A model generated the notes under the pieces. The model saw nothing but the letters and a program-made list of their open reading frames with translations. It made no database searches and was not told the origin of the DNA. The translations under genes and the position numbers were made by a program. 64,000 nt of DNA from Solwaraspora sp. WMMD791 (GTDB lineage: Bacteria > Actinomycetota > Actinomycetes > Mycobacteriales > Micromonosporaceae), in the NCBI RefSeq assembly GCF_029581195.1, contig NZ_CP120737.1, positions 4,131,001 through 4,195,000 on the forward strand, read 5' to 3'. This document shows positions 42,764 through 57,701 of this stretch, piece by piece. Each line of letters begins with the position of its first letter. The stretch's first letter is position 1.

Positions 42764-44071
42764 CTACCGGCGGCGACCGGCGGAGCGGGTCCCGACCACT
42801 CTCACCAGCATCCCGAGCAGCACCGCGACCAGGCCGAGCCCGACGAGTGTGGCGACCGACGGCCCGGTGACCGGCAGCCCGTCGACGCCGGGCGGCGCGG
42901 TCAGCACCGTGAACGTGTCCTGGTTGTCGCTCGGATCGACGTCCACGGCGGTGGCGGCCACCGCGCCCGCCGGCAGGACCGTCGGCGTGGTGACCGGGTC
43001 GCCCGCCGCCAGCGCCACCGGGTCGGCCACCTCGGCGATCGCCGCCGTGACGACGCCGCCGGTGAGCACGGCCGGCGCCGGGGCGCCCGCTCCGACCCGG
43101 ACCGGGTGGGTGAAGACCATCGCCGAACCGGTCTGCGCCGATCTCGTGGCCAGGACGAGTTCGGGGTACGCGCAGGTGGCCTCGGCACCGTCGGCCGCGT
43201 ACCGGCAGCCTGCCAGGGTCTCGGCGAACGTCACGTGCTCGGGCAGCCGCACGGTGAGCGTGATCCCGGTCACCGGCACCGTGCCGACGTTGCCCACCTC
43301 GTACCGCAGCGCGGTGGTGTCGCCCGGGGCCACCGTCGCCGCCGGGTCGTCGGGCAGGTACGGCACGTCCCACGCCCGCACGTAGACGTCGGTGACCGGC
43401 GACCCGGCGATGCTCACCGGGGCCTGCGCGCTGTCGTTGGCCGGGTCGGGGTCGCGACCGTCGTGGCGCACCGTCGCCCGGAGCACACCGATCCGCACGC
43501 CAGCGCCGATCCACGGCCGGATCCTGGTCTCCAGCCGGATCGAGCGACCGGCCGGCAGGTCGGCCAGCGCGCACTCGCCGGCCACCGGGATGTCGTAGTG
43601 CGGGTTGGGCGACGTGGGGTCCGGCGACGGCGGATCGTAGGGCGGCATCGTCCCGGGCAGGGTGTCACAGAAGTGGATGGTGCCGGCGTCGACCGCTTCG
43701 CTGTCCACCCTCGACTCGCTCAGGTCCAGGATGACCCCGCGGGCCGTGCCGGGCCCGTGGTTGGTCACCGTGATCACCGTCGACTTGTAGCCGGGCGCGT
43801 TGATCGTGGCACCGGTGATCCGTACCGCCAGATCGGCCCCGGCGGCCGGGCTCCCGGCAAGATCGGCACCAGGGCTCCCGGCCGGATCGACGTCCGGGGA
43901 GACCGGCGTGGTGACGGGCGTGGCGACGGGTTCCGAGGGAGCCGGGTCGGCCGGGGCAGGGGTGGCAGCGGCCGACCCGACCCCGGGGGCGAGGGCGACG
44001 CACATGCCGGCGGTCACGAACGCGACGGTTGCCGTACGCCGGACCGCTGGCAGTTTCCGGTTCCAGACCAT
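42764..44071 (-). CDS. LPXTG-anchored surface protein with DUF11-like repeats
   Basis: 435 residues. Signal peptide (VRRTATVAFVTAGMCVALA, cut near GSAAA), a Pro/Ala linker, then two DUF11-like beta-sandwich repeats (VRITGATINAPGYKSTVITV and ALRYEVGNVGTVPVTGITLT). The C-terminus is a full sorting signal: LPVTG, hydrophobic segment VATLVGLGLVAVLLGMLV, then RSAGRRR. A sortase should link it to peptidoglycan. ATG 44071 is probably leaderless. menG follows at 18 nt, an unexpected co-transcription. Confidence 0.85.
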   Translation of the reverse strand: MVWNRKLPAVRRTATVAFVTAGMCVALAPGVGSAAATPAPADPAPSEPVATPVTTPVSPDVDPAGSPGADLAGSPAAGADLAVRITGATINAPGYKSTVITVTNHGPGTARGVILDLSESRVDSEAVDAGTIHFCDTLPGTMPPYDPPSPDPTSPNPHYDIPVAGECALADLPAGRSIRLETRIRPWIGAGVRIGVLRATVRHDGRDPDPANDSAQAPVSIAGSPVTDVYVRAWDVPYLPDDPAATVAPGDTTALRYEVGNVGTVPVTGITLTVRLPEHVTFAETLAGCRYAADGAEATCAYPELVLATRSAQTGSAMVFTHPVRVGAGAPAPAVLTGGVVTAAIAEVADPVALAAGDPVTTPTVLPAGAVAATAVDVDPSDNQDTFTVLTAPPGVDGLPVTGPSVATLVGLGLVAVLLGMLVRVVGTRSAGRRR

Positions 44072-47236: not shown

Positions 47237-47555
47237 GAGGAATTCACGTCCAACATTTTTGCAAATGACCGTGACTACCTCTGGCGCAGCCGGGACACCG
47301 CAACTACGCTGGGCCGCGACTCCGGGATCGGCTCGCCCGCCGGTGCCCGGCCGTCCGGCAGCGCCCCCGATGTCGATGGAGCTGATACAGATCCGCCTAT
47401 CTCGATTCAGCCGACGCCGCGACAGTTAGAAATGTCGCGGGTTCCATGATCCGCGTGAAATTGTTTCGCACCACGGTGTCGAATGTCGCCGGGTACGACG
47501 GATCACGCTGCCCGGATTCCCCCATCTCACCCGCTCATCTCCAAGGAGACAATCG
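47237..47555. other. Noncoding gap with one hairpin
   Basis: About 320 nt. CCGCGACA (47417-47424) pairs with TGTCGCGG (47433-47440), possibly a weak terminator for the upstream gene. A lower-GC part (47236-47265 and 47425-47500) precedes the LPRTG gene and should contain its promoter; no consensus was clear. Confidence 0.5.
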
Positions 47556-47744
47556 ATGTCTGCTGCCTCCCTGCCGCGCACCGGCACCAGCGCTGCGGTC
47601 ACCATCGGTGGAATTGGCGGAATCGGCCAGTTGAGCCTTCCGCTACCGGCGGCCCTGGTGACCGCCGCGGTCACCATGATCGTCATTGGTGCGTTGCTCG
47701 TCCGGCTGTCCTTCCGTCCGGGTCGCCCCGCGTCGAACCGGTGA
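47556..47744 (+). CDS. 62-residue LPRTG-motif membrane microprotein
   Basis: MSAASLPRTG at the start, a Gly/Ile-rich spacer, one hydrophobic helix (about 31-51, LVTAAVTMIVIGALLV) and a basic tail (RLSFRPGRPASNR). This is a sortase sorting signal without a protein in front of it and without a signal peptide. The basic tail predicts N-outside insertion, exposing LPRTG. ATG 47556 has AAGGAGA at 7 nt. The stop overlaps the GTG of the GT2 gene (GTGA), so production is coupled. Function unknown. Confidence 0.75.
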   Translation: MSAASLPRTGTSAAVTIGGIGGIGQLSLPLPAALVTAAVTMIVIGALLVRLSFRPGRPASNR

Positions 47745-49168
47745 CCGCGACCCTCGTCCCAGGGCGCACCTACGCCGCCGCCGCTGCCCTGCTGGCAGCG
47801 GTGGCGGTGTGGGCCGCCCACCATGCGCTTGCCGCGTTCGGCCTGCTCAGCCACGGCACCGGGCACCGCTTCACCGCGATCTACGTCCTCATGTACGGCC
47901 TTCTGGTGTGGCAGTTGGGGTTCGCCTACCTCAATCAGCCGTACCGGGTCGGCCGCGCCGGGCGGCGGGCCCTCGACACGCTCGACGTGGCGGCGCTCGT
48001 TCCGGTGTACAACGAGGACCCGACGGCGCTGCGCGCCTGCCTGGAATCGATGATCGGGCAGCACCGGCGACCCCGGACGATCGTGGTCGTCGACGACGGC
48101 TCCACCACCGGCACGGCCGCGTACGCAGAGGTCCGGGACTGGTTCGGGCCGGCCGCCACGCAGGCCGGGATCCGGCCGGTGTGGCGACGCCAGGACAACG
48201 CGGGCAAACGGCACGCGCAGGCCGCCGCCATCGCCGAGGCACCCGACGCCGACGTCTACTGGACCGTCGACTCGGACACGATCAGCGATCCGCGCGCCCT
48301 CGGCGAGCTGCTCGCGCCACTGGCCGACCCGGCAGTGCAGTCGGTCGCGGGGATCGTGATGGCCGCCAACGTCCGGTCGTCGCTGCTGACCCGCTTCACC
48401 GACCTGTGGTTCGTCGCCGGGCAGTTGACCGACCGGTCCAGCCTCTCCGTCCTCAACGCCGTCTGGGTCAACTCCGGACCGATCGCGGTGTATCGCGGCC
48501 CGGTGATCCGCGACAACCTGGACAGCTACCTCAACGAGACCTTCGCCGGGCGGCGGGTACCGTTCAGCGACGACTCGATGCTGACCCTGTTCGCGATGTT
48601 GGCTGGCCGGACCGTCCAGCAGCCCTCCGCGTTCGCCTTCGCGCTGATGCCCGAGAAGGCCGGCCACTTCCTGCGGATGTTCGTCCGTTGGATGCGGGGC
48701 TCGTTCATCCGGTCACTGTGGCGGATGCGCTACCTGCCGCTGCGCTCGTGGGCCTACTGGCTGCACCTGATCCGGTGGGCGACGACGCTGCTGTCCACGA
48801 CGCTGTTCGTGACCGTGGCGGTGGTGATCCCGATCCAGGAGCCGTCGCTGGCCGCCCTGCCCTGGCTGGTGAGCGTCCCGATCGTCATCGGGTACGCGCA
48901 GTGCCTGCGGTACCTGACGATCCGCCGGTCCGACCAGTCGACTGCGTACCAGTGGGGCACCTGGGCGCTCGCGCCGATCGCGGTGGCCTGGGCGATGCTG
49001 GTGCTGCGCGCCACCCGCTGGTACGGCGTCGCCACCTGCTGGAAGACCGGCTGGGGCACCCGTGGCACCGTCGAGGTCGCCCTGGCGGCGGCCCCGATCC
49101 CCAGCCAGCGCGCCGGCGGCGTCGAACAGGTGCCGAACCCGGATGCCGAACTGGCGGCCCGCAGCTAG
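47741..49168 (+). CDS. Hyaluronan-synthase-like processive glycosyltransferase (GT2)
   Basis: 475 residues. Two N-terminal membrane segments (about 8-30, 42-62), a GT2 catalytic domain, then three C-terminal segments. Motifs in order: VPVYNEDP, VVDDGSTTG (UDP-sugar binding), DSDT (DxD metal site), NSGPIAVYRG, DDSML (base), and RWMRGSFIRSLW, matching the R-W motif of hyaluronan/chitin synthases. It probably polymerises and exports a polysaccharide; the sugar is not predictable. GTG 47741 overlaps the LPRTG gene. Confidence 0.88.
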   Translation: MTATLVPGRTYAAAAALLAAVAVWAAHHALAAFGLLSHGTGHRFTAIYVLMYGLLVWQLGFAYLNQPYRVGRAGRRALDTLDVAALVPVYNEDPTALRACLESMIGQHRRPRTIVVVDDGSTTGTAAYAEVRDWFGPAATQAGIRPVWRRQDNAGKRHAQAAAIAEAPDADVYWTVDSDTISDPRALGELLAPLADPAVQSVAGIVMAANVRSSLLTRFTDLWFVAGQLTDRSSLSVLNAVWVNSGPIAVYRGPVIRDNLDSYLNETFAGRRVPFSDDSMLTLFAMLAGRTVQQPSAFAFALMPEKAGHFLRMFVRWMRGSFIRSLWRMRYLPLRSWAYWLHLIRWATTLLSTTLFVTVAVVIPIQEPSLAALPWLVSVPIVIGYAQCLRYLTIRRSDQSTAYQWGTWALAPIAVAWAMLVLRATRWYGVATCWKTGWGTRGTVEVALAAAPIPSQRAGGVEQVPNPDAELAARS

Positions 49169-53701: not shown

Positions 53702-54011
53702 AAACAGTCCAGACTCCGGACAACTTCGGGCACCGGGGAGACGTGCCACCGGCGATCCCGTGAGGCAACTCACCGCAGACATGATTCTGATCCACCTATT
53801 GTGCCATTATTATCGAACTAAATGGACATAACAGTTTATTTTTGCCGCAATTAACCTGAACTTGAAACTCCCTCCCCTGGCCGATCGAGGTTTCCGACGT
53901 AAACTGCCCTGTGTCGCGCCGGGCCCACCGAGCGCGCCAGGCCGGACACCCATCGTCGATCAGGACACCCGACGCAGGATCATCCACGCTCACCTCCCGG
54001 AGCAGCCCCCC
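53702..54011. other. Intergenic region with an AT-rich island
   Basis: 310 nt between the paa promoter and the first serine hydrolase. The stretch about 53800-53870 is roughly two thirds A+T, in striking contrast to the rest. It includes TTATTTTTG and AATTAACCT elements. No ORF is credible. It is probably the hydrolase promoter region. Confidence 0.55.
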
Positions 54012-54995
54012 ATGACTTCACGCGTGACGGTCACTGTCGTGCTGGCAGCCCTGGTGGTCGGTGCCGTCCTGATGATCCCCACCGCTTCGGCACGCCTGGT
54101 GGGCGAGATGACGTCGACCATAGGCAACCAGCCGGCGACCGCGCTGACCGAATCGACGCCGACCGCCCCCGAGTCCCCTGAGCCGCCCGCCGTACCGACG
54201 CTGCGGGCAGCACCGGTCTCCGTCCCCGTCGACGGCTTCCTCTCCTGGGCGCTGCTGGACCGGGCCAGCGGCGAGATCAGCGGCTCGGACAACATCACCG
54301 AGACCAGCTCGACCGAGTCGATGATCAAAATCTGGATCGTCTCCGACTACCTGCGCGAACTGGGCGAGGTCGAGCCGGGCCCCGACAACCTGGCACAGGC
54401 CGCGCTGGCCATCCGGGACAGCGACGACGACGCGACGAACCGGCTCTACTACGCCGCCGGCGGCGACATCGTGCTCGACCGGATGATCAAGATGTGCGGG
54501 TTGGCGCAGACCCGGGCGGTGATCCCGCCAGGGGAACGCAACATCTGGTGGAGCTACACCCAGATGTCCGCCCGCGACGCCGTCCTGATGGGCGAATGTG
54601 TCCGCAACGGCACCGCCGCCGGGCCGAAATGGACCGACTGGGTGCTGAGCCAGATGACGCAGGTCCGAGGCAGCACCGCGGTGGCGGACCAGCAGGCCCG
54701 CTCCGGCGGCGGCCGTTGGGGGATCGTCGACGGGCTGCCACAGAGCCTCCTCGACGAGGTCGAGGTCGGGATCAAGAACGGCTGGACCCGGATCTGGGCC
54801 GACGCGTCCTGGCACCTGAACTGCCTCGCGGTCACCGACGACTGGGTGCTCGCCGTGATGACCCGCTACCCCGGCGAGTACGGACTCGACTACGGTGCCA
54901 ACCTCTGCCGCGACGTCACCCGGCAACTGGTCACCCCGCACGCCGGCGCGTCGATCCAGCTTCCCGCCGCTGCCACGCCCGCAGCCCGTAGCTGA
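54012..54995 (+). CDS. Secreted SxxK serine hydrolase (beta-lactamase/PBP-like), copy 1
   Basis: 327 residues. Signal peptide or N-terminal anchor (VTVTVVLAALVVGAVLMIPTASA), Pro/Thr linker, then a penicillin-recognising fold: S-MIK at about 103-106 (SxxK), DSDDD in the SDN position (about 138), and K-NG (IKNGW) in place of KTG near 256. Two cysteines (KMCG, GECV) may pair. ATG 54012 is chosen just before the hydrophobic segment. Likely acts on peptidoglycan or beta-lactams outside the cell; not a standard class A enzyme. Confidence 0.82.
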   Translation: MTSRVTVTVVLAALVVGAVLMIPTASARLVGEMTSTIGNQPATALTESTPTAPESPEPPAVPTLRAAPVSVPVDGFLSWALLDRASGEISGSDNITETSSTESMIKIWIVSDYLRELGEVEPGPDNLAQAALAIRDSDDDATNRLYYAAGGDIVLDRMIKMCGLAQTRAVIPPGERNIWWSYTQMSARDAVLMGECVRNGTAAGPKWTDWVLSQMTQVRGSTAVADQQARSGGGRWGIVDGLPQSLLDEVEVGIKNGWTRIWADASWHLNCLAVTDDWVLAVMTRYPGEYGLDYGANLCRDVTRQLVTPHAGASIQLPAAATPAARS

Positions 54996-54996
54996 C

Positions 54997-57701
<2,705 letters not shown>

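Follow-up and report, generated by a model that had tools for sequence, protein, structure and literature searches.

Solwaraspora sp. WMMD791 encodes, side by side, a 62-residue membrane protein carrying an LPRTG motif and a GT2 glycosyltransferase resembling hyaluronan synthases (HAS). Both lie in the window, the 64,000-nucleotide stretch analysed here of a 6.93 Mb single-contig genome. We think it somewhat probable that these genes constitute a two-gene polysaccharide synthase, in which the small protein is a single-span partner of the HAS-like GT2 and, in most lineages, its outward end is a sortase substrate. The evidence is computational and comprises the pairing of the two genes across genomes, a span and a motif that are both conserved, purifying selection on the microprotein, the HAS-like fold of the synthase and a plasmid lineage in which a class E sortase gene adjoins the pair.

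The microprotein frame (47556..47744, + strand) begins 7 nt downstream of an RBS-like AAGGAG (47543..47548, + strand; read from the sequence) and is supported by homologues as well as by the ORF itself. Its product begins with MSAASLPRTG, continues with a Gly-rich hydrophobic stretch and, after a membrane span, ends in a basic tail. The LPRTG motif (residues 6–10; 47571..47585), which is LPxTG or LAxTG in most homologues, the span predicted from hydropathy (about residues 32–49; 47649..47702; best 19-residue mean 2.35) and the tail (residues 50–62; 47703..47741), predicted to be cytoplasmic by the positive-inside rule, are all on the + strand and conform to the order of a sortase substrate, in which a pentapeptide motif is followed by a hydrophobic span and then by a basic tail. 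The TGA (47742–47744) overlaps the GTG (47741) of the GT2 gene. The earlier note had thus described this locus correctly, and a cut between T and G would indeed free the nonapeptide MSAASLPRT that it had named. An N-terminal signal peptide with exported cargo is absent, only 8–16 residues leading up to the cut (median 10) in 42 motif-bearing sequences chosen by hand. No ATG, GTG or TTG stands between the preceding in-frame stop and this ATG, so that the window sequence holds no start codon farther upstream in this frame, which makes a signal peptide unlikely and rules out a conventional secreted LPXTG protein whose true start had been overlooked. A Pfam match to DAP10 was rejected (21.8 bits, below the cut-off of 22.9), none of the members tried reached an NCBIfam cut-off, and in the plasmid records examined the microprotein appears only as "hypothetical protein".

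The GT2 gene (47741..49168, + strand; GT2 domains by Pfam) encodes 475 residues. The earlier note had called this enzyme hyaluronan-synthase-like, which both a sequence profile and the predicted fold uphold. With a profile of eleven relatives, the nearest solved proteins were hyaluronan synthases (best E 9.2e-27, top five all HAS), the profile alignment revealing a WGTR end and an RW motif common to GT2 and HAS. When the AlphaFold2 model of the window GT2 (pLDDT 88.4) was compared with known folds, HAS occupied ranks 1–13 (TM-score to query 0.51–0.67; fold alignments with 16–20% identity), ahead of cellulose synthases and others, and the fold agrees in the catalytic domain as well as in the membrane region. 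The enzyme scored far below the cut-offs for PgaC/IcaA (42.1 bits vs. 422.3 for TIGR03937) and for the NodC chitooligosaccharide synthase (141.2 bits vs. 550 for TIGR04242). Among 67 related loci in species genomes, 20 have an ORF of a UDP-glucose dehydrogenase cluster within about 6 kb, a HAS-like trait, and 11, 8 of these in Actinomyces, have one of a polysaccharide deacetylase cluster, both clusters having been named from scans of their representatives only. Microprotein, GT2 and dehydrogenase genes are consecutive on two Streptomyces plasmids; the window genome has four dehydrogenase matches above the cut-off, none of them inside the window. These dehydrogenase neighbours make a GlcA-containing product plausible. 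In Actinomyces (L121–L125, L127, L131 and L141), a polysaccharide-deacetylase-like gene lies upstream of the GT2 and may hint at an amino-sugar polymer there. Elsewhere in the window, two similar ORFs neighbour each other (53862–54995 and 54895–56121, + strand), the first of which matches the Beta-lactamase2 family.

The association of the two genes was recovered from either side. A microprotein profile matched 13 of 300 family genomes at E ≤ 5e-5, with a GT2 gene adjacent in all 13, and a profile built from 26 microproteins alone matched 12 of 394 class genomes at E ≤ 1e-4 (the window genome included), with a HAS-like GT2 directly downstream in 12/12 and L[PA]xTG in 11. A strict mechanical filter applied to 68 GT2 loci retained 36 microprotein-like ORFs just upstream of the GT2 and no others on either strand of 853,223 bases. 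This control and the class-level adjacency rule out a chance occurrence of the motif ORF. Weaker matches behaved otherwise: at E ≤ 0.01 the family search reached 24 of the 300 genomes, and 12 loci (L044–L055) from the 11 weaker genomes had no GT2 relative, while a narrow profile run on 298 order genomes at E ≤ 1e-3 gave 12 matches, three beside a GT2 and nine not (the best of these nine, at 4.4e-6, lying within a 396-aa frame). Starting from the synthase, we found 20 family genomes with a GT2 at E ≤ 1e-60; L[PA]xTG lies upstream in 14, LLRTG in one and a motif-less span in four; at the remaining one, L075, the most distant family GT2, no such upstream ORF was found. The scan of species genomes yielded 68 loci, from which L143 (29%, covering part of the protein) was excluded; the remaining 67 comprise 7 with LPxTG, 30 with LAxTG, one doubtful LAxTG, two near-motifs, 15 whose span lacks the motif and 12 in which a span is in frame with the GT2 start, the last two classes having been assigned by eye with uncertain start codons (the assignments are least certain for Leifsonia, Curtobacterium, Klugiella, Frigoribacterium and L120). 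The pair is thus present in many actinobacteria, S. viridochromogenes DSM 40736 (L094) among them, and some Saccharibacteria; related GT2 genes mostly have the short ORF in front of them and most homologues retain LPxTG or LAxTG, the two observations on which the earlier note had staked its proposal. There is strong reason to regard the two genes as partners. Their products presumably also touch each other, the structure models being of single chains, which cannot reveal contact.

Translational coupling, also claimed in the earlier note, fits the window and several Micromonospora relatives, in which stop and start overlap as GTGA, but does not extend to the pair in general, many Streptomyces loci having no overlap or an unclear start. 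Such an overlap would suit a leader frame that exists chiefly for the translation of the GT2 and whose product has no function. We consider this highly improbable, because the frame is under purifying selection at the protein level, retains a single architecture across phyla and occurs at loci without overlap, and because similar spans stand in frame at the synthase. In 35 non-independent pairs, the four fixed positions of the motif have a pN/pS of 0.077, against 0.237 elsewhere; the codons thus look protein-coding, and the motif is under stronger constraint than the remainder of the protein.

The second residue of the motif is A in 30, P in 11 and L in one of the 42 motif-bearing sequences. 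LAXTG is the signal of class E sortases (PMC5148588). In 41 of the 42, positive charge is greater on the C-terminal side of the span, which predicts an N-out topology, so that the N-terminus would lie outside and the tail inside. The distance from the motif to the first basic residue is atypical: 39 in the window protein and 23–40 (median 32) in the 42 homologues, vs. 20–25 in 24 ordinary sorting signals, a comparison set biased by having been picked with profiles of ordinary-looking signals. The window microprotein therefore falls outside ordinary spacing, as do most homologues, and the extra stretch could be a place of contact with the synthase. On the GT2 tree, a quick reconstruction with long branches flagged and near-motifs scored as motif, the presence of the motif changed at least six times, and its loss from 15 of the 67 loci indicates that it is not always needed.

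Sortases were found in all 40 genomes tested, with and without the motif, so their presence does not discriminate; in the window genome, a single class E enzyme and two of class F exceed the cut-off and an F-like one falls below it. On three related Pseudonocardia plasmids (source Apterostigma dentigerum), a class E sortase gene stands divergently beside a LAYTG microprotein and its GT2 (L256, 4744–7512; L259, 3744–4893; L262, 2244–3393); one of these sortases scores 204.8 bits against a cut-off of 160. An adjacent dedicated sortase is nevertheless ruled out as the rule, five queries against 85 loci having matched only L256 and L259 (L262, with its sortase taken from annotation, lay outside that set, and distant sortases could escape the queries). 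The persistence of the span beyond the motif, the long spacing and the lack of a sortase near the other loci all weigh against a simple sortase story. From the sequences, we are moderately confident that a sortase acts on the microprotein in most lineages. Two further proteins carry LPVTG. A 435-aa DUF11 protein of the window (42764–44071, − strand) ends in an ordinary LPVTG sorting signal and is likely a conventional sortase substrate. The other, read by eye in another actinobacterial genome (L217, frame at 1276 on the − strand), is a small secreted protein with a signal-peptide-like start and an LPVTG end, near an apparent sugar-transferase gene.

A second pair exists in the window genome, outside the window (L169 1327–2755; G000:C1:2338078–2339506). 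PF13641 has 38 matches in this genome, and the filter detected an LPxTG microprotein at two of the 30 loci fetched, one of them that of the window. In the second pair, the gene of a 47-aa protein beginning MSASQDLPVTG follows a different GT2 at a distance of 43 nt, and the motif spacing of this protein is like that of an ordinary sortase signal. This GT2 was found in 11 of 200 family genomes and is followed by the microprotein, with LPVTG or LPLTG, in ten; in the eleventh (L211) the microprotein frame is interrupted. The Micro-b profile matched 35 of 394 class genomes at E ≤ 0.01, with no E-value outside the window genome better than 1.2e-4, and at the 29 loci fetched from other genomes a surrounding stretch of about 1.5 kb held no GT2 relative. 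With the window genome as the sole strong match at class level, this pair looks family-specific.

At nine Actinomyces, two Lactococcus and one Saccharibacterium loci, the GT2 frame itself extends upstream through a basic-ended span, whose end (e.g., LFKRGM) resembles the tails of Actinoplanes microproteins. The Actinomyces model has a confident extra helix at residues 5–26 (pLDDT 94 at 11–20), followed by a disordered linker. A similar span in frame at the synthase N-terminus supports the partnership of the two proteins; the fused spans are similar to the microprotein, which falls short of proof of homology. Of the two ideas put forward in the earlier note, a membrane partner of the synthase and a peptide anchor or primer, the former is thus the better supported, since a small span precedes the GT2 whether the motif is there or not. 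The microprotein might do no more than assemble, stabilize or regulate the synthase, a role attributed to small partners of other GT2 synthases, its motif being left unprocessed, as a remnant of a recruited sorting signal, or kept for some other purpose. The persistence of the span where the motif is lost, the motif-less in-frame spans of Actinomyces and Lactococcus, the atypical spacing and the absence of N-terminal cargo all speak for such a role; against it stand the strong constraint on the motif, its exchange exactly between two known signal types, the class E sortase beside the plasmid pair, and the fact that another GT2 has its own LPxTG microprotein, unrelated to the first and ordinary in its spacing. 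On balance, we find a membrane subunit of this kind, never processed by sortase, unlikely but worth serious consideration.

If the microprotein is both a synthase partner and a sortase substrate, as we favour, the GT2 would polymerize and extrude a HAS-like, possibly GlcA-containing polymer, while the microprotein, a single-span subunit, would insert N-out with its basic tail inside and pack against the synthase. Its outer end would form, in most lineages, a minimal sortase signal, bound by a class E enzyme for LAxTG and by a class F or E enzyme for the LPRTG of the window. Cleavage between T and G would then move a peptide of about 8–16 residues to a wall amine, while the span would stay with the synthase. 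The cell would most likely benefit through a coupling of polymer synthesis to the wall, either because sortase and wall precursor are brought to the channel exit or because the state of the subunit becomes sortase-dependent. The transferred peptide might instead be an anchor to which the nascent polymer is attached, yielding a wall-bound HAS-like polymer. Such a role would account for a transferred peptide that is otherwise nearly cargo-free, and a Ser or Tyr can be seen by eye in nearly every N-terminal peptide listed, but Ser after Met is common anyway, no enzyme for the attachment is known here, synthesis is cytosolic whereas the peptide is predicted outside, and several lineages dispense with the motif; we therefore hold the peptide anchor to be decidedly improbable. 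A broader conjecture, which we likewise rate as improbable, is that in Actinobacteria and Saccharibacteria stand-alone sorting signals tie the nascent HAS-like polymer, or else its synthase's activity, to the wall, the transferred peptide being a covalent sugar–peptidoglycan linker. Were such a linker real, the second pair would imply a device of general use with two or more origins. A protein of about 50–60 residues would link processive polysaccharide synthases and sortases, which are usually studied apart. If the proposal holds, actinobacterial HAS-like enzymes gain a partner subunit and the holding of an extracellular polymer at the wall becomes testable with simple genetics, involving two genes, a sortase and obvious point mutants.

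Among known systems, the HAS of Chlorella virus and Xenopus are the nearest solved relatives of the GT2 by profile and fold; we know of no microprotein partner of a HAS. In PgaC/PgaD and IcaA/IcaD, a processive GT2 is likewise accompanied by a small membrane protein from a neighbouring gene, PgaD and IcaD having two spans and no known sortase motif. LPXTG and LAXTG substrates, such as the class E long chaplins, have the same order of motif, hydrophobic stretch and basic tail; unlike them, the microprotein has no signal peptide or cargo, and its motif-to-tail spacing is longer. The earlier note knew of no described system of this form, and none emerged from the literature searched, which consisted largely of freely available papers; in the portion consulted of a paper on Actinoplanes exopolysaccharide (PMC13390465), the terms "sortase" and "LPXTG" are absent. 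Judging from excerpts of the sources, the nearest printed concept that we encountered is the XrtG exosortase/Firmicu-CTERM set, which includes two glycosyltransferases (PMC12854382), and the PEP-CTERM/EpsH sorting system is tied to exopolysaccharide genes (PMC1569441). Both, as those excerpts present them, likewise link a sorting transpeptidase to glycosyltransferase or exopolysaccharide genes, but they use an exosortase, whereas the pair described here combines a sortase, usually encoded elsewhere, with a microprotein tag placed before a HAS-like GT2.
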